A stretch of DNA of 46,232 nucleotides, from positions 1 through 46,232 of the forward strand of contig JAHWGJ010000014.1 in assembly GCA_020054475.1 (NCBI GenBank). The letters are read 5' to 3'. Shown piece by piece: positions 7,201 to 44,254 of the stretch. The notes beneath the pieces are model-generated. The model ran no database searches. It was given only the letters and a program-made list of their open reading frames with translations, and was not told the DNA's origin. Source of the stretch: Thermoplasmata archaeon. Its GTDB lineage: Archaea > Thermoplasmatota > E2 > DHVEG-1. Numbering within the stretch: position 1 is the stretch's first letter; each line of letters starts with the position of its first letter. The translations under genes were made by a program, and so were the position numbers.

Positions 7201-8712
7201 ATCAATATCTCCTTCACTAGATCTTGTACCTGAAACAACAATTAATTTTCCATCACTAGTTAAAGCTGGTGAACTTTCAATTGTGTTTACTGGAATTTCA
7301 ACTTGTTTTGATGGTATTATTGTTGAACCTTCATCACCTTGCGGTATTGTTGCATTAAATGAATATAATATATCCCCATCAATAGATGCAATATATAATA
7401 TATTATTCTTAATTACAGGATTTCTATATTCCCCTCCAGATAATGTTGTTGTATACCAGTATAAACTATGATTATTACTGTCAGGTCCATAACCATCTGA
7501 GGATCTTGTATTTTTTGAATTTTTTCCAAACATTAACCAATCATTAACTGATAAAATTAATTTCGCTTCATCATTTGAAATTATAATATTATCATTTTGA
7601 TCGATTCTAAATGGTGAAGAAAAACGGTCTCTCCAAATATTATTATTTGTTTGCCATAATATACTTAAACTATCAATTTCTGGAGAAATTGATGGATTAT
7701 TTGTTGATAAATTTGCTAGTATTTTTATATCATATAACGGAAGATCTTCTAGATTAATTGGAGGTGAAGTAAATCCATTTTCATTTCCTGACAAATAATA
7801 ATCATCTATTAGATTAAAATCTCCTGTATCATTTTTATATAATATGTGATATTTTATTGATGTTCCAATTCTTTCATAATCTTGCCATGATAAAAATTCC
7901 CATCTATCTAAATTATCTGGAGAAATCTCAGAGGAAATTGCATGTCCATAATACGATGATCCTTGACCATAAGTATTTATCTTAACATAATCAGTAAAAA
8001 CAGAGCATGACTCTTTAAAATTGGGAGTTGCAACTAGACAAAAATCAATAAAATTATCTTTATCAATAAATAAATCTCCAGTAAAATTTTGTTGAATTTC
8101 AATAACAGATGAATTTGATATTCCTGTTGCAGCTACTTCCCATTTACCTATTGGATCAGCTGGTTGCCAATAATAAAGAGAAATTTTTTTATCATTTTCA
8201 GCTTTTCCACACCAGTAAATATTTAATTTATTTGTGAAATTAATATTTTCATTTATTTTTAATCTAAAATGATGTATTTTTTTCATTGGCAATAATAGTA
8301 ATGGTTCATTGACTTCATTTAATGGATAAAAAATATTATTTTTACTTTCAATTAAGTTATAATCAACGTCTCCATCAAATTCGTTTTCGAAATAATTTAT
8401 ACCAAATTTTGGAGAAAGTGGCATTAAGAAAGAATAACTATATGCTCTATCTTCTGATTCTATATTCCAATCTGAATAATCATATATTCTTGTACTTGAG
8501 CTATATGGGTCTAAAATAATTTTTCCATTTTCTTTTGAAGTAGTGCAATTTATCAATTCGACATTATCTCCTTCTTCGAAAATATCGATAAAGTATACGC
8601 CATCAGATTCATTTATATCTGATGATAATGAAGCACTATTATAAGCTGATAATATCATAATTATTGTTAATATTAAAATCAATATTTTACTATATGAATT
8701 ATTTTTATTCAT
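4207..8712 (-). CDS. Giant cell-surface protein with PQQ-type beta-propeller and Ig-like domains
   Basis: 1501 residues with an N-terminal signal peptide (hydrophobic ILILILTIIMILSAY) and a C-terminal membrane anchor (residues about 1473-1495, basic tail KRLKNR). It should be exported and held at the membrane with nearly all mass outside. Residues about 391-807 contain repeated PQQ/Trp-docking blades. Examples are IFAIDVNNGEKIWDNN, VIALDFSDGSELWNFS, IYALDIDDGEEIWSE and LYALDKTNGSIIWQE, each a [A-L-D-x-x-(D/N)-G-x-x-(I/L)-W] unit. The propeller opens with WLMFGKNSKNTRSS. After it come three or four Ig-like modules with repeated 'P-IC-I-V' and 'ADLS' elements. There is no catalytic motif; such propellers usually mediate protein or carbohydrate binding. 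A good RBS (AGGAGAAAAGTAT before ATG) supports the start. Its exact role is unknown. Confidence 0.8.
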   Translation of the reverse strand: MNKNNSYSKILILILTIIMILSAYNSASLSSDINESDGVYFIDIFEEGDNVELINCTTSKENGKIILDPYSSSTRIYDYSDWNIESEDRAYSYSFLMPLSPKFGINYFENEFDGDVDYNLIESKNNIFYPLNEVNEPLLLLPMKKIHHFRLKINENINFTNKLNIYWCGKAENDKKISLYYWQPADPIGKWEVAATGISNSSVIEIQQNFTGDLFIDKDNFIDFCLVATPNFKESCSVFTDYVKINTYGQGSSYYGHAISSEISPDNLDRWEFLSWQDYERIGTSIKYHILYKNDTGDFNLIDDYYLSGNENGFTSPPINLEDLPLYDIKILANLSTNNPSISPEIDSLSILWQTNNNIWRDRFSSPFRIDQNDNIIISNDEAKLILSVNDWLMFGKNSKNTRSSDGYGPDSNNHSLYWYTTTLSGGEYRNPVIKNNILYIASIDGDILYSFNATIPQGDEGSTIIPSKQVEIPVNTIESSPALTSDGKLIVVSGTRSSEGDIDNKIFAYSTDNILSDNTVWEFNYSEIDEDNAYICYSASPTIYEDKILISSWSGKDSIWDSLWNYFNFSSGNNKLIALDFDGNFKWLYDLPAGSFSNPAVYNDIVIVGCENNDGKSIFAIDVNNGEKIWDNNVGSIGRSSPLIYDDKIFVTIKERGFMPFTGYERVIALDFSDGSELWNFSIGDDIADNYEKIAGSSSTVYDDYLYTVSADGTIYALDIDDGEEIWSEKIYTKALTSPYYLVSSLACTRDILYAGTPDGILYALDKTNGSIIWQENTYDNSPIQNSPIIVDGIIYYGSENGMLYSRGEFKVIEGEVITGSIISSPINLPNPNYDWNKFYAEHMTNDGKIEFFILDKYGNILLDDIFDGSNISKSNVNNKDTIRLRADFSANYSSNVSGEAILKDWMVTFGDDVVSSETVFYDNSFYSSGIPPICRIDVQNQYIGLLDSAKFRFKYEQQSEEFTSEWYNAVFSGVDGTLNRVTLTADLSEADITNNDTIFLEIQFKINDAGNDNNETKSDWYDIEYDTPDIESPIFFEETFMPDEGWISINNPICSINVKDEGTKGNITGLNTDTARYNFQYKDSSSSRSYTGKATSDGINGTIETITLIADLSQLEFIDEVVDFRQIRFFIEDMAGNIKYSNYYELETDNEKPSSWLINTDEIPSKTNIKSVKIDAMAEDNISGINYVDLYYSKIEGNWIKFGSDDYISPYTWNFSITKTIRGGEFELCTIATDLANNVEDLPQIGDISFIYDPIKPEIKSYKSKYIFENDLIPSFDDIQFTDDYKLKNVEYRLEFYDQNKWIQINENNIDTNSYTPSWNLSKDDWDYMVEDIEYYIYFRITDSLDNIYETTSNQDAVKIIKNIQINVIKTPYDPDITDLKSLNWNNIYKIFVNISENEISEIKLLYRYSQNNENWSDFIQYGELKNTSPFEWEFSVDNGSGFYEFKTAVFNSSGKYYESEIQSVNLILFPTYLIIAMVISIIFLLIVTAIIFKRLKNR

Positions 8713-8892
8713 ATACTTTTCTCCTTTTATATTTCCCTCTTCAATCTATACTCTTGCTGTTTAAATAATTTTGGTATTATTTCTCTTATATAAAATTATG
8801 AAGAATTTTGAAATTATTTTAAATATAATTTATTTTTTGCTTTGATTTATAATAATGTATTATTTAATTATTTCAATTTAATTTTTTATTAC

Positions 8893-10224
8893 TTAACGAA
8901 GGATAAGTTGTATATCCATTAGATTTGTACCAGTAGGTCCTGTTTTAATTAAATCTTCTAGAACTTTAAAAAATTCATATGAATTGTTATTTTTTAAGAA
9001 ATAATTTGGATCAAATTTTTTTTGTAAAGCTCTTTTTAATGAGTAACTATCCGCTATAGCACCTGCAGCGTCACTATACCCATCGATTCCATCTGTTGCA
9101 AATGAAGCAAAAACAATATTTTTATCCTTAAGAGACTTTATACTCCCTAAGACCATCTCTTGATTTCTTCCACCTTTACCTTTTCCGATGACATTTACTG
9201 TTGTTTCTCCTCCAGATATATATAATTTTTTAGTTTCATTCTTTTCATTAATTTTTTCGATAAGGATTTTACCTACATTTTTTGCTTCTCCAGTTAAACA
9301 AGTTGATAATATCTCTGTTTTGTATCCCTTTTTTTTCGCATATTTTTCAACTGTAAGACATAATGACCTATTATTTCCAATAATATAATTATGTACTGTA
9401 TTAAAAATTGGATTATCTTTTTTTAGTGTTTCTGGAATTAATCCTAATATTCCATTATTAATCGATTTTCTAACAATATTTGGAATTTTTTTCCAAATGT
9501 CATGTTTTATAAGTATATTCTTTGCATCATTAAAAGTAGTTGAATCAGGATAAGTTGGGCCTGATGCAATAAATTCAATTGGATCATTTACAATATCTGA
9601 TATTATTAAACTAATAACTTCGCAATTTACATTTTTTAAAAGTTGACCCCCTTTAACAAATGATAAATGTTTTCTAATTGTATTAATCTCACTAATTTCC
9701 ATATTTGTTTTTAATAATAATTCTGTCGTTTTTTTTAGAGCATCCAATCCAATTCTAGGATTGCAAAGTAATGTTGATCCTCCTCCAGATATTAGAATTA
9801 TTATAAGATCTTGTTTTCTACTTTCTTGGATTATTTTTAAAATATGCTTTGTACCTTTTATACTATTTTGATTTGGAATTGGGTGACCTGCTACATATGT
9901 TGTAATTATTTTATCATTAATTTTTATTTTTTGATTATTTGTAATTAATATAGCTTTTGAGATATTTATTGAATCTAAAACAGCCTTGCCCATTTTTATA
10001 CTAGCTTTTCCAAATCCTATTAAATAAATATTATCGAATTTTGTAGTATCTATATTTTTCTTATCAATTAGAATTTTTCCTTCTTTAATAATTCCTTTTA
10101 CAGTTTTATATGGGTCAACTTCGCTAAATGCTAGATTTAAAATATCAAGAATATCTTTTCTTTGTCTTTTAATTTCGCAATTCATTCCATTGCTTATTAG
10201 CTCATGATAGTTTTTAAATAACAT
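8893..10224 (-). CDS. Glycerate 2-kinase (MOFRL family)
   Basis: 443 residues matching archaeal glycerate kinases of the GckA/MOFRL type, which phosphorylate D-glycerate to 2-phosphoglycerate. Visible signatures are IGFGKAS near residue 70, ISGGGSTLLCNPR in the N-terminal domain, SDIVNDPIEFIASGPTYPD, and GKGGRNQE followed by ASFATDGIDGYSDAAGA in the MOFRL domain. In the semi- or non-phosphorylative Entner-Doudoroff pathway this links glyceraldehyde oxidation to glycolysis; here it may also serve glycerate from serine. It begins 15 bases after the SRP54 stop on the same strand, so co-transcription is likely although no functional link is known. It is of usual length with no missing motif. Confidence 0.88.
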   Translation of the reverse strand: MLFKNYHELISNGMNCEIKRQRKDILDILNLAFSEVDPYKTVKGIIKEGKILIDKKNIDTTKFDNIYLIGFGKASIKMGKAVLDSINISKAILITNNQKIKINDKIITTYVAGHPIPNQNSIKGTKHILKIIQESRKQDLIIILISGGGSTLLCNPRIGLDALKKTTELLLKTNMEISEINTIRKHLSFVKGGQLLKNVNCEVISLIISDIVNDPIEFIASGPTYPDSTTFNDAKNILIKHDIWKKIPNIVRKSINNGILGLIPETLKKDNPIFNTVHNYIIGNNRSLCLTVEKYAKKKGYKTEILSTCLTGEAKNVGKILIEKINEKNETKKLYISGGETTVNVIGKGKGGRNQEMVLGSIKSLKDKNIVFASFATDGIDGYSDAAGAIADSYSLKRALQKKFDPNYFLKNNNSYEFFKVLEDLIKTGPTGTNLMDIQLILR

Positions 10225-10239
10225 TTGAATATTTAATTA

Positions 10240-11571
10240 TTAATTTCCAAATTGTAATTGTTTCATAAGATTTTTTCTCATTTTACGATTACCCGAAAGC
10301 CCTTTCATCATACGTTTTGTCATATTATAATATTTTATTAACTCTTTAACATCCTTATTTTCTACACCTGATCCTCTTGCTATTCGTTTGATTCTTGAAG
10401 CTCGAACAATATTTGGATTTTCCATTTCCTCGTTAGTCATTGAATCCATGATAATTCGAAATTTCTGTAATTTATTTTCAGTGCTGCCCATATCAACATT
10501 TTTTATTCGACCTGAAAAGTTACCGGGGAGCATATCAGCAATTTTATTTAATGGTCCCATACCAGATAACATGTCCATCTGATCATACATGTCATGTAAA
10601 GTGAATTTGCCCGACATCATACGTTTTGCTGTTTTTTCAACATCTTTACCCTTCATGCTTAATTCTGCTTTTTCGAGTAATGATTTAATATCCCCCATTC
10701 CAAGTATTCTGGAAATGAAACTAGCTGGATCAAAGGTTTCAAAATCATTAGAATGTTCACCAGTACCTATAAATAAAATTGGTGCACCTACCTCGGCAGC
10801 TGCACTAATAGCGCCACCACCCTTTGCGGTACCATCCAGTTTCGTTAATATAATTCCTGTAATATCTACAGTATCATTGAATGCTTTAGCTTGAGATCCT
10901 GCTTGTTGACCTATTGCAGCGTCAATTACTAAAAGTTTTTCATTTGGTTTGGCAGTTTGAAAAATATCTTTCATTTCTTGAATTAAATCATCTTCAAGTT
11001 TATGCCTACCTGATGTATCAACTATAATAACATCACTAGTTCTTTTAAATTTATTTATGCCATCATTTACAACTTTAACTGCATTTTTTTCTTTTTTATC
11101 CCCATAAAATGGAACTTCCGCTTTCTCCGATATTTGTTTTAATTGCTCGAAAGCTGCAGGTCTATGAACATCTCCTGCAATTAAAGCAGGTCTTAATCCT
11201 CTATTTTTAAAATAAGTGGCTAGTTTTCCACAACTTGTAGTTTTTCCTTGACCATAAAGTCCAGTCATCATTATAATTTGTTTTTTAATTGGCAATTCTC
11301 TAGATTTTCCTAATATATTCACTAGTTCATCATATACAATATGAATAACATGCTCTCTATTACTCATTCCTGCAGGAGGTTTCTCCTGCAAAGCTCTTTT
11401 TTCAATCTTTTTAGACAGGCTTAAAACTAATTTAACATTAACATCAGACTGCAACAAAGCTCTTTGTATGTCTCTTACTACTTCTTTAATCAGTTTTGAA
11501 TCAATATAAACAGCATTTGCAATTTTTTTTAATGTACCTTTAAGAGAATCACTTAAATCGTTTAAAACCAT
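10240..11571 (-). CDS. srp54: Signal recognition particle protein SRP54
   Basis: 443-residue SRP GTPase. It has an N-terminal helical bundle, then the G domain with G1 GLYGQGKTTS at 104-113, DTSGRH (G3), TKLDGTAKGGG (G4 and closing loop) and GDVHRPAAFEQL. The methionine-rich M domain at about 320-443 (FTLHDMYDQMDMLSGMGPL) binds signal sequences and 7S RNA. It acts with SRP19, 7S RNA and FtsY in co-translational targeting, which the many exported proteins in this window would need. It has standard archaeal length and domain order. About 250 AT-rich bases separate it from the divergent transketolase gene, enough for two promoters. The glycerate kinase gene follows closely downstream. Confidence 0.96.
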   Translation of the reverse strand: MVLNDLSDSLKGTLKKIANAVYIDSKLIKEVVRDIQRALLQSDVNVKLVLSLSKKIEKRALQEKPPAGMSNREHVIHIVYDELVNILGKSRELPIKKQIIMMTGLYGQGKTTSCGKLATYFKNRGLRPALIAGDVHRPAAFEQLKQISEKAEVPFYGDKKEKNAVKVVNDGINKFKRTSDVIIVDTSGRHKLEDDLIQEMKDIFQTAKPNEKLLVIDAAIGQQAGSQAKAFNDTVDITGIILTKLDGTAKGGGAISAAAEVGAPILFIGTGEHSNDFETFDPASFISRILGMGDIKSLLEKAELSMKGKDVEKTAKRMMSGKFTLHDMYDQMDMLSGMGPLNKIADMLPGNFSGRIKNVDMGSTENKLQKFRIIMDSMTNEEMENPNIVRASRIKRIARGSGVENKDVKELIKYYNMTKRMMKGLSGNRKMRKNLMKQLQFGN

Positions 11572-38540: not shown

Positions 38541-38783
38541 TTATTTTTTATTTTTTTCTTCAATATGTTTTTTTTCTTTTGTTATAATACCTTTTAAAGT
38601 TCTGATTCTTGCATCAAGAGTTCTAATATTATTTTCAATTTTTCCTTTTTTAATATTATATTTAGCTCTTGTCAATTCATTTGAATTAAGTTTATTTTTC
38701 AAACTATCTAATTTTTCATTTTCTTTTTCAATTGCTTTCTCTCTTTTTATAATATTTTTTTCCAACCGTTTAATAAAACTCAT
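38541..38783 (-). CDS. Small charged coiled-coil protein
   Basis: 80 residues, nearly all helix-forming and rich in Lys and Glu, with heptad-like spacing of Leu and Ile (SFIKRLEKNIIKREKAIEK, then RTLDARIRTLKG). There are no cysteines, signal peptide or membrane segment. It is convergent with acyP and lies 184 bases beyond the SRAP gene on the same strand. No family is recognised; it could be an accessory of the upstream cluster, but nothing in the sequence shows that. Confidence 0.6.
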   Translation of the reverse strand: MSFIKRLEKNIIKREKAIEKENEKLDSLKNKLNSNELTRAKYNIKKGKIENNIRTLDARIRTLKGIITKEKKHIEEKNKK

Positions 38784-38967: not shown

Positions 38968-39687
38968 TTAATCAATATATCTTAATTCTGGATAGAAATA
39001 TGGTTTAATAATTTGAGCAATATTCTTCTCTCTAGTTCTACTTGTTATTAATCTTGAAATTGTATATGCTTCCATTTCTTCATCAGGATATGGGATAAGA
39101 TTTTTTTTTATTTCCTCATCCTTTAAGTCTTTTTTAAGCCATTTTTTTTCATTTCCCTTTGATAAAATAACAGGCATTCTCTTTTTTTTATTATGTATTT
39201 TACTTAAAAGTTTATTAGATTTGCATGTAATAATTGAGTAGGAATATACAATTTTTTTATCTAATGGATTTTTCCAACAATCCCAAATGCCTGCAAAAGA
39301 AAAAATATTATGATTTTTTAATCTGATATAATATGGATAATTATTCCCCTTTAACTTTCTCCATTCATAGAAACCATCAGCCGGTATTAAACATCTTTTT
39401 GATCTAATTGACTTTTTATAGCTAGGTTTATCAAAAATTGTTTCAGACCTTGCATTTATTGTCTTAATACGAATTTTTTCAGAATCTTCAAAATTTTTTA
39501 TCCAAAAAGGGATTAAACCCCAATAAAAAAATTGAAAATATTCGGGATATTTATTAGTAATAACCGGCATTTTTTTTATATCGAATGAATTTACAATAAA
39601 TTTTTTTTGAAATTCATCTCCCTTTTTTAAAACTGCGTTATAATCATCCTTTGTAGGAAATACAGTTAAACTATAATTATAACACAT
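38968..39687 (-). CDS. SRAP-domain protein (YedK/HMCES-like abasic-site DNA-protein crosslinker)
   Basis: 239 residues. I move the start to the ATG at 39687 because the family needs Cys2 exposed after Met removal, and the protein then reads MCYNYSLTVF; the frame otherwise runs to 39705. Catalytic residues line up with YedK: C2, N78 in INARSET, E108 in PADGFYEWR and H165 in the SKIH segment before RMPVIL. Proteins of this family form a thiazolidine crosslink with abasic sites in single-stranded DNA and so shield them from error-prone processing. It follows the polymerase gene by about 75 bases on the same strand and has its own TATA-like ATTTAAATATATAAATT. The context suggests a role in damage tolerance. 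Confidence 0.9.
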   Translation of the reverse strand: MCYNYSLTVFPTKDDYNAVLKKGDEFQKKFIVNSFDIKKMPVITNKYPEYFQFFYWGLIPFWIKNFEDSEKIRIKTINARSETIFDKPSYKKSIRSKRCLIPADGFYEWRKLKGNNYPYYIRLKNHNIFSFAGIWDCWKNPLDKKIVYSYSIITCKSNKLLSKIHNKKKRMPVILSKGNEKKWLKKDLKDEEIKKNLIPYPDEEMEAYTISRLITSRTREKNIAQIIKPYFYPELRYID

Positions 39688-39779
39688 AATCTTTTTCCCA
39701 AACAAATATTAAATTTTTCAATATAATTTATTGAATTTATATATTTAAATGAAATTTAAATTTATCTCAAAAAAGATAT

Positions 39780-42005
39780 TTACATTTTTTGCCTATCTTT
39801 AATCTTTTGAATCATTTGAAATATATGTTCAATTTTATAGCCAAACGGTATAAGAATACTTTCACCACATCTTGCAAGCTGTCTAAGATAAAAATCTACA
39901 TCTATCCTACTATTCATATCTAAATTCTCTATAATGCATACACGCTCATGATCATGAGATGATTTCTCATCTTTTACTATATATCGGATTGATTGCCCGG
40001 GCCGAATCTGAATTTTAGATTTTTTAAACTGAATTAATGCGGATTTAACTAAATTATTAACTTTATATTCAGTAATATCTTTTGATATTCTGGTGGTAAA
40101 AACTAAATCATTATGATCTATTTTCCCATTTATTATCTTAATTCCATAATTCAATATTACATCTAAAGCATAAGGGATATTTTTAATAAATTCTTTGTAA
40201 TTATTAGCTTTTGAAAAAATCCTGAGCATATCTTTTTGCATATTTTTCATGTATCTAGGAAAATTATTTTGACGTAACTCAATTCCACGGGCCTTTATTT
40301 CTCCACTATCAAATAACCCATAATATCGATTCAAAGCTCCGACATGTGTTAATTTACTTGGTAGAAAAACTATCCATTTATAATGATCTTCTATATCTAG
40401 TTTTATTCCTATTTGATTTTCAATTTTTTTTGAAATACTAAAAGGATACATATTTTCATTTGGAGATTTAATCCATAATGAATCAATTATTCCATGTATT
40501 ATTGTCCACCCTGCTTTTTCAAATAGTTCTATGGCAGTTAAAATTATATCTCGGCTAAATGAAGTTATACTTTCATAACATTCAATTCTACCAAAACGAG
40601 CATTACGATAACCAGTATAACCAAAACAAACCAATAAAATCCATTTCCATGCAATTTGCAGTTCCTTATACAATTCTTTGTCAATCCCCTCCTTTTTTGA
40701 TCTGGCTTTAAAACAAAAACGTCTGTAAATAATTAATTCAAGTAATTCAGGTATTATTCCTTTTTGGCGACTACATATATGATAACCTGTCTGCGGAACT
40801 TGATTATATGAGTTTTTACAACAATCACAAAGCAAAGTTTCAGGGCTTATATTATATGTAAACATTATATTTGGATATAAAGAAGCAAAATCAAGTTCAA
40901 AGACATCTTCATGTAATCCAACAATTGGATCCATGATTAAACCACCTCTGTCAGATTCCAAAAGTTTAGCAGCTGTTTTCCATGTTTCGGGCATATTTTT
41001 TCTCCATGGTATAAGGTAACCCTTTTCAATTGCTTTATTTAGTTGCATTTGACTAATTGCAGTACCTACCCCTAATCTTGATAAAAGCTGCAATGGAATA
41101 TTTGAACACCTTGAAATATCTAACAAACCCCTAAAGCCACTTTCTTTATGTAAAAATGAATTATAAGTATCAATATGTGCTCTACCATAAAAAGTGTAAA
41201 AAGCTGGACGGTATATTATTTGCCCATAGCTAAAATATGATTTTTCATTTTTTAGTGGCAAATAATTCTGTATTTTTTCTCTTCCAAAATTTACTAGTTT
41301 TTTTATATTGCAGATATCTGCTCGATGGTAAATAAAAGGAATAATAAGATTATCGCCCTTTTTTATATCAAGAATGTCAGGATCAATTCTTTTCAGATAT
41401 TTTAAAGATGATATTATAGTGTCAGATTCATTTTTCTCTTCAATAATACAATCATTAATTTTAATTGATTTTAAAGGTTTATCGAATGAAAATGTTGTTT
41501 TATTTGATTTTTGTTTAACACTAATTTCAGCTACATTGAAAAAAGGTATATCATAATCAATTGCCCATTGAGAGTCAGTTGATATGAATTTTTTCCCATC
41601 CCATTTTACATACGCATTGCAAAAGATCCCTTTTTCTTGCAAATATCTACTTGTCAAACGTATATCCACATTAAATAATTGATATTGATGAAACCTGCCC
41701 CAATAATCAATCATTTTAGAAAGTTTACCAATATATGCAATATTTTTAGGAGTTACTTCAAGAACAATTTTTTCTTTATCGCTTCCTAAAACAGTCTTAC
41801 AATTTGTAAATTTTATATTTCCTACATCTGATAAATCATTTAAAACATTTGCTAAATTGTAAAGATTTTTAGATTTAGAATAAACATAAAAACTTGGTTG
41901 AAAATCATCTTCAATCCTAATAGATTTGCCCTTATCAACTAACCAAGTAATCATCTTATTTTTATTCTTGTCCAAATATACATCAAATACGTTTCCACTC
42001 AACAT
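39780..42005 (-). CDS. Divergent family B DNA polymerase with degraded active sites (PolB2-like)
   Basis: 741 residues with the overall family B layout. Motif A is intact: ELDFASLYPNIM with D372. Motif B, usually K-x3-NS-xYG, reads KWILLVCFG (454-462), keeping Lys and Gly but losing Asn-Ser. GYTGYRNARFG is conserved. Motif C, usually YGDTDS, reads HGIIDS (504-509), losing the first Asp and keeping D508. The exonuclease Asp/Glu motifs are not recognisable in residues 150-300. A cysteine group C393, C395, C396, C411 may bind metal. The thumb (RPGQSIRYIVKDE, FYLRQL, LIPFGY) is present. This fits the known family of inactivated archaeal B polymerases (PolB2). D372 and D508 are the equivalents of the main metal ligands, so weak or altered activity is not excluded. 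TTATATAAG upstream may be its promoter. Confidence 0.88.
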   Translation of the reverse strand: MLSGNVFDVYLDKNKNKMITWLVDKGKSIRIEDDFQPSFYVYSKSKNLYNLANVLNDLSDVGNIKFTNCKTVLGSDKEKIVLEVTPKNIAYIGKLSKMIDYWGRFHQYQLFNVDIRLTSRYLQEKGIFCNAYVKWDGKKFISTDSQWAIDYDIPFFNVAEISVKQKSNKTTFSFDKPLKSIKINDCIIEEKNESDTIISSLKYLKRIDPDILDIKKGDNLIIPFIYHRADICNIKKLVNFGREKIQNYLPLKNEKSYFSYGQIIYRPAFYTFYGRAHIDTYNSFLHKESGFRGLLDISRCSNIPLQLLSRLGVGTAISQMQLNKAIEKGYLIPWRKNMPETWKTAAKLLESDRGGLIMDPIVGLHEDVFELDFASLYPNIMFTYNISPETLLCDCCKNSYNQVPQTGYHICSRQKGIIPELLELIIYRRFCFKARSKKEGIDKELYKELQIAWKWILLVCFGYTGYRNARFGRIECYESITSFSRDIILTAIELFEKAGWTIIHGIIDSLWIKSPNENMYPFSISKKIENQIGIKLDIEDHYKWIVFLPSKLTHVGALNRYYGLFDSGEIKARGIELRQNNFPRYMKNMQKDMLRIFSKANNYKEFIKNIPYALDVILNYGIKIINGKIDHNDLVFTTRISKDITEYKVNNLVKSALIQFKKSKIQIRPGQSIRYIVKDEKSSHDHERVCIIENLDMNSRIDVDFYLRQLARCGESILIPFGYKIEHIFQMIQKIKDRQKM

Positions 42006-42117
42006 AATTTTCCATTTGCCTCATCTATGATATTTAATGGAGTTCAATTATTGTAAGGCATCTTCTTTAAAATCAACCAATTTCAATAATAAATCTTATA
42101 TAATTTTTTCAGAATTT

Positions 42118-42864
42118 TTACATTGCCATTTCAAAATCATTTAAACGTGATTGGCCTTTTTCAATTATTGAAAATGAATTTCTACTGTTTTTTTTCTCAA
42201 AATTAAAACTTATAACTTGTCCAATTTTTTTTATTTTAACAATTTGATCTATATTTTCATAAAGTATTCTATTGACCTTTTTTCGTAAGGTTGTTCTTGT
42301 ATCAAAATCTGATAGTATAGTAACAAGTTCATATTTTTTTGTTATATCTTTAATTTTTCTTAAATTATTTTTCATAAGTATATCTGCTTCGCTAGATGAA
42401 ATATCGGAATCAAGATATAGATCTAAAAATTTTCCAATTATTAATATTTTTGGACTACATTCTATTATTTTTTGTTCTAATTTATATTGTAAAAGAGCAG
42501 TTAATTGGAATATAGTAAATGCTCTGCTTATATATATATGATTTAAAGCTTCTCTTTGATCAAACTCCATTTTTCTTGCATATTTGGCGATTATATAAGG
42601 ATTAAAGCTCATTCCTCCATCTATATAAATGACGTTTTTATGATGTGTTTTGTAGGTTTTTGCACATATTTGATAAGGAATATTTAATACGATTTTTTTG
42701 TAACCCTGTATAAAATTAATTTCTCCTGATTTAAAACCTCCAATAAATTTGTCTAAATCTCTTATTCCAGATTTAATTATAGTATATTTATTTTGAAATT
42801 CTTTTATGCAATGAGAATGAAAATTTAATTTTTTCATACTTGAAATTGATAAGTTATTTTTCAA
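42118..42864 (-). CDS. RadA/RecA-like ATPase paralogue lacking Walker A and B
   Basis: 248 residues with the RadA/KaiC-like opening SGIRDLDKFIGGFKSGEINFIQG, strand by strand as in RadA. Where GxxGxGKT should follow, residues 53-60 read QGYKKIVL, so the phosphate loop is gone. Walker B reads KILIIGKF (139-146) with Gly replacing Asp. YISRAFTIFQL matches RadA's 'ARAYN--H' helix. It should keep the fold but not hydrolyse ATP, so a structural or adaptor role is likely. Start: TTG at 42864 with AAGGAG eight bases upstream. It lies between a four-Cys small protein and the degenerate polymerase, all on one strand, and the paired loss of catalysis in both is notable. Confidence 0.75.
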   Translation of the reverse strand: MKNNLSISSMKKLNFHSHCIKEFQNKYTIIKSGIRDLDKFIGGFKSGEINFIQGYKKIVLNIPYQICAKTYKTHHKNVIYIDGGMSFNPYIIAKYARKMEFDQREALNHIYISRAFTIFQLTALLQYKLEQKIIECSPKILIIGKFLDLYLDSDISSSEADILMKNNLRKIKDITKKYELVTILSDFDTRTTLRKKVNRILYENIDQIVKIKKIGQVISFNFEKKNSRNSFSIIEKGQSRLNDFEMAM

Positions 42865-43022
42865 ATTTATTTTCTCCTTAAAATTTATTTTTGCAAAATT
42901 TACATGCTTTTTTTTTTAAAAAAAATAGAATAAAGATTATTGAAAGTATTAATTATTTTTAAGAAAAATAAAAAAATCGAAATGAATTTGAATTATTTGG
43001 CCATTTTTTGATTATATACTAT

Positions 43023-43196
43023 TTATTTCAGATACTTACAAATATCAGATGATAGATCCCAAAAAGAGCAATCATCTCTTTTGCATCTAGTCCCACTTAA
43101 GGGACAATAATCATCATAATAAGGACTTCCATCTGCAAATTTAATGCTGTTTTTCCATTCCTTATCTACTGTTTTTACAAATTCTAAACCAATCAT
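43023..43196 (-). CDS. 57-residue four-cysteine protein
   Basis: ATG at 43196, preceded by a strong GGGGGATC ribosome binding site. The frame reads MIGLEFVKTVDKEWKN and then has C31, C38, C43 and C53 (C-x6-C-x4-C-x9-C) with CPLSGTRCKRDDCSFW, and ends in TAA at 43023-43025. Four cysteines in 23 residues suggest one zinc ion or an iron-sulfur cluster. A TATA-like AAATATAAATATTT lies near 43232-43247. It is the first gene of the minus-strand cluster with the RadA-like protein, the degenerate polymerase and the SRAP protein, about 160 bases before the RadA-like start. No family is recognised. The good RBS and promoter make a real gene likely despite its size. Confidence 0.7.
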   Translation of the reverse strand: MIGLEFVKTVDKEWKNSIKFADGSPYYDDYCPLSGTRCKRDDCSFWDLSSDICKYLK

Positions 43197-43363
43197 TAGT
43201 GATCCCCCATTTTTTTTATTAGTAAGTCTGTTAAATATTTATATTTTGTTCGCAGGTAAATATGCAAGTATGTATTATAAAAATAATTTTAATATATAAG
43301 ATGAAAAAATGCTATTGAAAGTATGATGAACTGATTAGATTCGAAAATAAAAGTTGAGTTAAA

Positions 43364-44254
43364 GTGGGCCCGCCCGAATTTGAATCGGGGTCTCTAGCTC
43401 CCAAAGCTATCAGATGCGAAGAGATAATATCTGTTGATGATGGTATTTTTGAAGACTTTATTGGTTTTAGAGGAGTTAATGGATTAAGCGATGAATGGAT
43501 ATATCTTATTAGATACTATATTAAAAATTATTTAGTATTTGTTGATTGGAAAATTAATAGAAAGAATACATTAAGTTATTTCAATAAAATTAGAGATAAT
43601 AATTCTATAACATCATTTAGAAAACAAGTATATCAAATTAGGAAATTCCTTACTTACCTGAATATTGAATGGGCAAAAGATATTAGACCACCATCAGAAC
43701 CGTTATACATTCCAAAAAGAATAACCATTGAAAGTATTAAAGGAACATTATCATATTTTAAAGACAATCAATACAATCTACAGATTAATGCAATTATCCA
43801 ACTAGGCATATCGTCAGGTATGAGGGCGGAAGAGATGTATCAATTAACTATAGATGATATTCACATAGACGATAGAATAGTACACATTAACCATAATCCA
43901 TCTAATGGTCAGTCTACTAAGACAAAGATAAGTAGAATATCATTCTTTGATAATCAGACACAACAGATGCTATCTGAGTATATTAATCACTTCAATAGGG
44001 GTAATAGTCTAAAGATATTGTTTTCTCAGAGTCATATTACAAGATTGTTTAGAGGTGCACCTATTAAAGTTAAAGATCTAAGGAAGTTCTTCAGCCAAGA
44101 ATGGGATAGAAGGGGTGGTCCAACATCTATAAAGAAAATATTGATGGGCCACAGCATGAAAGGTGATGTTGATTTAATGCATTATAATGCTCAATCTGAA
44201 GATGATTTAAAGAAGATATATGATAAGATTATGGGGAAGGATATTTATATCTAA
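43364..44254 (+). CDS. Tyrosine-type integrase starting inside a tRNA-Pro fragment
   Basis: 296 residues. The first 16 codons (MGPPEFESGSLAPKAI) are the antisense of the 3' half of tRNA-Pro. A SAM-like core-binding domain spans about 27-108. The catalytic domain has R154 (SGMRAEE), K237-x-x-R240 (KDLRKFF), H263 (LMGHS) and nucleophile Y274 (MHYN). KxxR in place of HxxR is the pattern of archaeal SSV-type integrases. Start GTG at 43364; no clear RBS, but TTTTAATATATAAG at about 43288-43301 is a candidate promoter. The gene looks complete, although in SSV-type systems integration often splits it at the att site. Base composition is visibly richer in G than that of its neighbours. It ends before a hairpin terminator. 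Confidence 0.88.
   Translation: MGPPEFESGSLAPKAIRCEEIISVDDGIFEDFIGFRGVNGLSDEWIYLIRYYIKNYLVFVDWKINRKNTLSYFNKIRDNNSITSFRKQVYQIRKFLTYLNIEWAKDIRPPSEPLYIPKRITIESIKGTLSYFKDNQYNLQINAIIQLGISSGMRAEEMYQLTIDDIHIDDRIVHINHNPSNGQSTKTKISRISFFDNQTQQMLSEYINHFNRGNSLKILFSQSHITRLFRGAPIKVKDLRKFFSQEWDRRGGPTSIKKILMGHSMKGDVDLMHYNAQSEDDLKKIYDKIMGKDIYI
43365..43410 (-). other. Integrase attachment site: 3' half of tRNA-Pro (TGG)
   Basis: Reading the minus strand, TAGC-TTTGGGA-GCTAG is an anticodon arm with anticodon TGG, then AGAC, the T arm CCCGA-TTCAAAT-TCGGG, the acceptor 3' strand CGGGCCC and discriminator A. The D arm and the 5' acceptor strand (expected GGGCCCG) are absent; integrase sequence lies there instead. 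This is therefore a half copy of a tRNA gene, the typical att duplication left by integration into a tRNA 3' end. Confidence 0.8.

Follow-up and report, generated by a model that had tools for sequence, protein, structure and literature searches.

A probable PolB2 translesion mutasome with a split operon and an SRAP companion in a Thermoplasmata archaeon

What do a family B DNA polymerase with an altered catalytic motif, a RecA-fold protein without ATPase motifs and a putative abasic-site crosslinker do side by side in an archaeal genome? The question is raised by positions 38,968 to 43,196 of a 46,232-nucleotide stretch (the window; contig JAHWGJ010000014.1, assembly GCA_020054475.1) from a Thermoplasmata archaeon, where a preliminary description had proposed a candidate four-gene damage-tolerance module. 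We find that the polymerase and the RecA-fold protein are probably those of the known archaeal PolB2 translesion mutasome (PolB2, an inactive RadA paralogue called iRadA, and PPB2), with its operon split in two. The recognised operon joins PolB2, iRadA and a helical protein of ~90 residues, arCOG07300, which is PPB2 (PMC4104785); the three proteins have been modelled as a mutasome, as a heteropentamer for 40 other protein sets, and SRAP and DUF72 genes are enriched near polB2 (PMC11791011). The module, a mutasome comparison and the link of SRAP to polB2 are already in print, and the grouping of PolB2, RadA-like protein and SRAP is not new. The bacterial mutasome analogy first drawn, with ImuA and ImuB, was sound, although the published comparison is with Pol V. 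The features are as follows.

42118-42864, minus strand: iRadA (Pfam Rad51, E 8.7e-8; AlphaFold2 (AF2) model; PDB fold match; motif loss)
42133..42153, minus strand: C-terminal QSRLNDF of iRadA, a PIP-like (PCNA-interacting peptide) motif of the form QxxLxxF, putative PCNA tether
42006..42117, minus strand: 112-bp spacer, the PPB2 slot in relatives; PPB2 remnant not detected
39780..42005, minus strand: PolB2, 741 residues (Pfam DNA_pol_B, E 1.9e-34; PolB2-type motifs; ratio of non-synonymous to synonymous substitution rates, dN/dS, 0.08)
40947..40952, minus strand: D(K/R) loop motif of PolB2, D352-R353, invariant across 13 aligned PolB2 proteins
40482..40496, minus strand: motif C of PolB2, residues 504-508, HGIID (HxxxD replacing YxDTD; alignment with relatives)
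38968..39687, minus strand: SRAP, 239 residues after start correction (open reading frame as called, 38968-39705; Pfam SRAP, E 2.5e-55)
43023-43196, minus strand: four-Cys open reading frame, 57 residues (no Pfam or NCBIfam match)

All four genes were found again at the positions first described, and their motif states were borne out by a re-check of the open reading frames, by Pfam and by alignments. Below, G000 is the window's own genome, and relatives are coded G (genomes) and L (loci). Against the sister genome G028, amino acid identity is 84% for PolB2, 71% for iRadA and 81% for SRAP, and dN/dS (YN00) is 0.08, 0.17 and 0.12, respectively. These low ratios indicate that all three genes are under purifying selection and are not decaying.

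Is PolB2 still a polymerase? It reads HGIIDS at motif C where YxDTDS is usual, and Pfam matches its exonuclease domain over half its length only (E 2e-6), with no DxE in the aligned region, so a broken canonical motif C and the lack of recognisable exonuclease motifs had been rightly noted. Motif A is intact (ELDFASLYP). PolB2 orthologues occur in 24/80 genomes of the class and in 19/45 genomes of the window's family, and most relatives keep the HxxxD form of motif C along with motif A, the Lys of motif B and the D-R loop motif, a loop modelled as the contact for the PPB2 arm (PMC11791011). With HxxxD typical of the group and dN/dS this low, "degraded" was the wrong word for this protein. Sulfolobus Dpo2, which has an HxxxD motif C with IID in the same place, polymerises as well as a replicase, does not proofread, and extends mismatches and lesions (PMC8764526), abasic sites included (PMC8721586). 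By analogy, we predict that the window PolB2 is most likely an active translesion polymerase without proofreading.

The preliminary description had instead cast PolB2 and the RadA-like protein as a scaffold without catalytic activity, assembled where single-stranded DNA is damaged; the four-Cys protein would contribute metal binding, and SRAP would cover the abasic site. Such a scaffold would suit a motif C without its first Asp, an iRadA without Walker A and B, and SRAP as a conserved neighbour. However, PolB2 and its relatives retain motif A, the Lys of motif B and the second Asp of motif C, and the four-Cys gene does not track PolB2. Because HxxxD is conserved in the group, selection is purifying, and Dpo2 with the same change is active (PMC8764526), a non-catalytic role for PolB2 is unlikely; the scaffold as a whole we hold to be very improbable. 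As a separate observation, the PolB2 gene of one relative (G041:C1; L047, L050) is broken in two: its parts are on opposite strands, separated by 65 kb that include a run of N, which reflects either an assembly error or an inversion.

The partner of this predicted polymerase is a Rad51/RadA-fold protein (AF2 predicted local distance difference test score, pLDDT, 86; top PDB folds Rad51, Dmc1 and RadA, Foldseek E ~1e-15). Its Walker A site reads QGYKKIVLN rather than GxGKT, its Walker B Asp is Gly (in LIIGKF), and it lacks the RadA N-terminal domain; Pfam, the structural comparison and motif alignment all agree with the first description of a RecA-fold protein without Walker A or B. The Q, L and F of its QxxLxxF tail are invariant in 16/16 aligned iRadA sequences, the window's among them, and PIP motifs in iRadA are on record (PMC11791011).

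Where, then, is the third subunit, which the gene set first listed had overlooked and which has no copy in the cluster? Nearly every relative with sufficient flanking DNA has the order iRadA-PPB2-PolB2. No frame of the window gave a credible PPB2 match, and no remnant was detected in the 112-bp spacer between iRadA and PolB2. PPB2 thus does not adjoin iRadA and PolB2 here; the order is typical rather than essential, and we treat the locus as a variant. Loss of PPB2 from the whole genome is ruled out for G000: a PPB2 profile search found an intact copy at G000:C40:58988-59227 (E 5.5e-38) that keeps the MGRT arm (MGRTVPTF), and the window PolB2 retains DR, the PPB2-contact motif. A relative, G012, has a PPB2 pseudogene with three stop codons in the ancestral slot together with an intact PPB2 on another contig, apparently an intermediate state of the split. 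A small tree of PPB2 sequences puts the intact trans copies of G000 and G012 together (support 0.84) and places the G012 pseudogene with G038, G040 and G042, which form the sister clade in the PolB2 tree. The simplest reading, with modest support because PPB2 is short, is that once a second PPB2 copy existed, the one in the operon was no longer needed and decayed. Given the copy in trans and the pseudogene in the relative's slot, the operon appears to have split, with iRadA, PolB2 and SRAP at the window locus and PPB2 with a nuclease gene elsewhere in the genome. A decaying PPB2 alongside an intact one in trans suggests that PPB2 is retained even outside the operon. Separately, a PPB2 paralogue at L075 7207-7569 (minus strand, G042:C75) lacks the MGRT arm and carries a C-terminal zinc-ribbon-like CPRC...CPDC.

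The nuclease gene begins 5 bp after the trans PPB2 of G000 and encodes a 141-residue protein. Its relatives lie directly after PolB2 in eight genomes (G042, G040, G038, G021, G017, G016, G027, G041), in five of which (G042, G040, G038, G021, G041) they precede SRAP, and between PPB2 and PolB2 in G019. Pfam gave only sub-threshold matches of restriction-nuclease or Hjc type; the D, ExK and Q residues are invariant in the alignment, and the AF2 model (pLDDT 90) has as its top PDB folds the XisH proteins 2inb and 2okf (Foldseek E 4e-5 to 1e-4), which points to a PD-(D/E)XK nuclease. The gene is present in 11/19 family genomes with PolB2 and 0/26 without it (p=7e-6; a weak and probably unrelated match in G039 is left out of the count), and more distant relatives in the phylum lie mostly away from PolB2. 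A recurrent extended layout in the family is iRadA-PPB2-PolB2-nuclease-SRAP. We found no convincing nuclease remnant between the window PolB2 and SRAP. The nuclease is a new candidate component, and any role in the mutasome is one that we infer.

Is the SRAP gene equipped for its expected chemistry? Because that chemistry requires a protein beginning MC, we moved the start from the called TTG, which is most likely wrong, to the ATG at 39687, so that the protein opens with MCYNYS and has the catalytic Cys2 in place. An alignment to HMCES and to relatives shows the active-site Asn, Glu and His (INARSET, GFYEW, IHNKKKRMP), the His adjoining a three-residue insertion (IHNKKKRMP against the IHDRMP type), and the protein matches the HMCES and YedK structures. 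The Pfam match and these residues uphold its first placement in the abasic-site crosslinker family, and we predict that it crosslinks abasic sites as YedK and HMCES, whose chemistry with these residues is established (PMC9436759), do.

A different function has been suggested by relatives of this protein: SRAP genes adjoin many mutagenic polymerases in bacteria (PMC3765255), and SRAP-like proteins have been proposed as small subunits of Y-family polymerases (PMC12926913). The window SRAP might accordingly be a regulatory subunit or an autopeptidase-like mutasome switch, not, or not only, a crosslinker, and its lack of a tail found in its relatives would agree with this. Yet the crosslinking site still has its Cys2, Asn-Ala-Arg motif, Glu and His, and these are the residues of the YedK/HMCES reaction; we judge a switch unlikely and prefer the crosslinker. 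The tail in question is QxxLF-like and resembles a PCNA-binding motif. It ends 11/18 SRAPs of the family if QKNLL and QQRLL are counted, with the variants QSSLF, QKNLF, QQATLF and TQATLF, and we saw seven more in family f38, whereas an end of the form Qxx[LI]F is expected by chance in ~2.5e-4 of cases per protein. Besides the family SRAPs, such tails occur at L201, L202, L205, L206 and L208-L210. The window SRAP ends ELRYID, and the tail appears to have been lost in its clade. A literature search limited to open-licence papers found no publication on PIP-like tails of SRAP. SRAP-like genes also lie beside PolB2 at L052 (G054:C10, near 195,000), where one starts MAGLIGLK instead of MC and is probably unable to crosslink, and G054 and G080 each gave several SRAP matches.

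Does SRAP belong with PolB2? Among the 45 family genomes, 17 have both genes, 2 PolB2 only, 1 SRAP only and 25 neither (Fisher p=2.6e-9), and the counts for genomes at least 80% complete are 12, 2, 0 and 17 (p=6e-7). Across 390 Thermoplasmatota genomes the corresponding counts are 85, 97, 4 and 204 (p=5e-29, not corrected for phylogeny), and 68, 95, 3 and 179 when the window's family is removed (p=1e-22). SRAP is almost never present without PolB2 across Thermoplasmata's phylum, Thermoplasmatota. It lies downstream of PolB2 in the window, G028, G012, G042, G040, G038, G021 and G041, upstream in G011 and divergently in G046 and G043; in a distant family (L225-L229), PPB2-PolB2 faces a reversed iRadA, which is followed by SRAP. 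The neighbourhood is conserved in relatives, in at least three arrangements, for three of the four genes first grouped.

Such a link could be passive: sharing a locus, the two genes could have been passed on as a pair, by descent or by transfer, without working jointly. PolB2 is found in only 19/45 family genomes, a block of asnS, acylphosphatase and coiled-coil genes is conserved as an anchor beside SRAP, and a tyrosine integrase lies at 43364-44254. However, the association holds whether SRAP is downstream, upstream or divergent, and even where PolB2 and SRAP lie apart, as in G010; it recurs in the distant family with another layout and another SRAP type; and the integrase is not at the sister loci. 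We therefore consider mere co-inheritance distinctly improbable, and favour a functional tie between SRAP and PolB2.

Several observations weigh against assigning the locus to a PolB2 mutasome with an SRAP companion. The sister genome G028 (82% complete) yielded no PPB2. SRAP is absent from 2 PolB2-bearing genomes of the family and from 97/182 in the phylum, and is therefore not an obligate part. All genomes are metagenome assemblies, and the co-occurrence statistics ignore relatedness. Finally, PolB2 (Dpo2) is known in Sulfolobus as an extender that acts after the Y-family inserter Dpo4 (PMC8764526, PMC8721586, PMC7390963), a role that is inapplicable unchanged in a family with no Y-family gene: the Y-family profile PF00817 matched 0/45 family genomes, G000 included, against 11/14 control genomes.

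What would take the place of the inserter? PF00817 matches 89/293 genomes of the phylum. In family f24 a Y-family polymerase lies beside iRadA (L230, open reading frame 9205-10338; L231), and in family f34, with the layout otherwise the same, SRAP occupies that iRadA-side slot (L225-L229; L229, open reading frame 8656-9297). Among PolB2-bearing genomes outside f24, those with SRAP tend to lack Y-family genes and vice versa (3/41/20/41, p=0.0016, taking the 293 genomes to be G000-G292), a tendency with p=0.035 when f24 and the window's family are both left out. Because one slot holds a Y-family polymerase in one family and SRAP in another, and because of this tendency, we raise as a tentative and rather doubtful reading that in lineages without Y-family polymerases SRAP takes over the inserter's abasic-site task by capping the site in single-stranded DNA, that other blocked ends are left to the PolB2 mutasome, and that the recruited PD-(D/E)XK nuclease processes capped or stalled intermediates. 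Against this, f24 has both SRAP and Y-family genes, the association is gone when all genomes are counted (p=1.0), and f24 was set aside after the data had been seen; the exclusion is a lead, not a result. A whole family in which PolB2 mutasomes occur, SRAP almost always accompanies them and Y-family polymerases are not detected makes two questions testable now: whether the PolB2 complex does the whole bypass, and whether abasic sites are sent to SRAP instead.

We suggest the following mechanism for the mutasome. iRadA, a Rad51-fold subunit without ATPase motifs, would dock PolB2, active but free of proofreading, by way of a Rad51-like interface, and its C-terminal PIP-like motif would tether the complex to PCNA. 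The second locus would supply PPB2, which as a trimer would place one of its N-terminal MGRT arms between PolB2 and iRadA. PolB2 could then extend mispaired or lesion-distorted primer ends, and the SRAP encoded beside it could cap abasic sites in exposed single-stranded DNA by a reversible Cys2 crosslink. This scheme draws on sequence for the domain and motif states, purifying selection, the trans PPB2, the decayed copy in a relative and SRAP co-occurrence, and on published work for Dpo2 activity, the modelled complex and SRAP chemistry; complex formation in the window organism, damage induction and cooperation of SRAP with the complex are what we infer.

What of the genes around these? The four-Cys gene, first described as part of the module, does not belong with the other three: only the window and G028 carry it at the locus, G012 has it at another site, G009 has it but no PolB2, and G000 contains weak paralogues of it. 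With scattered genomic positions and no association with PolB2 (p=0.30), we rejected it as a member. On the other side, 38541-38783 (minus strand) encodes an 80-residue coiled-coil protein without a family name that adjoins SRAP in 11 family loci and forms, with acylphosphatase and asnS, the conserved block there. It too was rejected as a PPB2 or module part: it lacks the MGRT arm, is found together with PPB2 in L035 and is present in 36/45 family genomes irrespective of PolB2. At 43358-44254 (plus strand; a start at 43364 is also given) lies the XerA-like tyrosine integrase (PF00589). The DNA that codes for its N-terminal residues MGPPEFESGS looks, on the opposite strand, like the 3' half of a tRNA. 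A complete tRNA was not detected at this start, and the stretch is possibly an attachment-site remnant. Absent from sister loci, the integrase was rejected as the sign of a mobile island.

How does the system compare with known ones? Pol V (UmuD'2C-RecA) and ImuA-ImuB-DnaE2 likewise pair a RecA-fold partner with an error-prone polymerase, and SRAP lies beside some such bacterial operons (PMC3765255). The window system is not a member of either: its polymerase is of family B and most likely itself active, and the ImuB-type Y-family fold (PF00817) had no match in G000 or the 45 family genomes. The nuclease beside PPB2 shares the fold and D...ExK core of XisH and other PD-(D/E)XK proteins (2inb, 2okf), but reaches no Pfam cut-off and has a link to PolB2 only within this archaeal family. 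SRAP has the Cys2, Asn, Glu and His of the YedK/HMCES abasic-site crosslinking site (PMC9436759); it differs in the insertion after His, and its relatives differ in their C-terminal QxxLF tail. With Sulfolobus Dpo2 (PMC8764526, PMC8721586, PMC7390963) PolB2 shares the HxxxD motif C and the loss of proofreading motifs, whereas Dpo2 acts after Y-family Dpo4 and no Y-family gene was found in the window's family. The closest counterpart is the PolB2 mutasome (PMC11791011, PMC4104785). To it the window adds the partly surprising features of a split operon, with PPB2 in trans beside a PD-(D/E)XK nuclease, a whole family without Y-family polymerase, and SRAP statistics that make it nearly constant there; in common they have PolB2, iRadA, their motif states, PPB2 in the genome and SRAP as an enriched neighbour.

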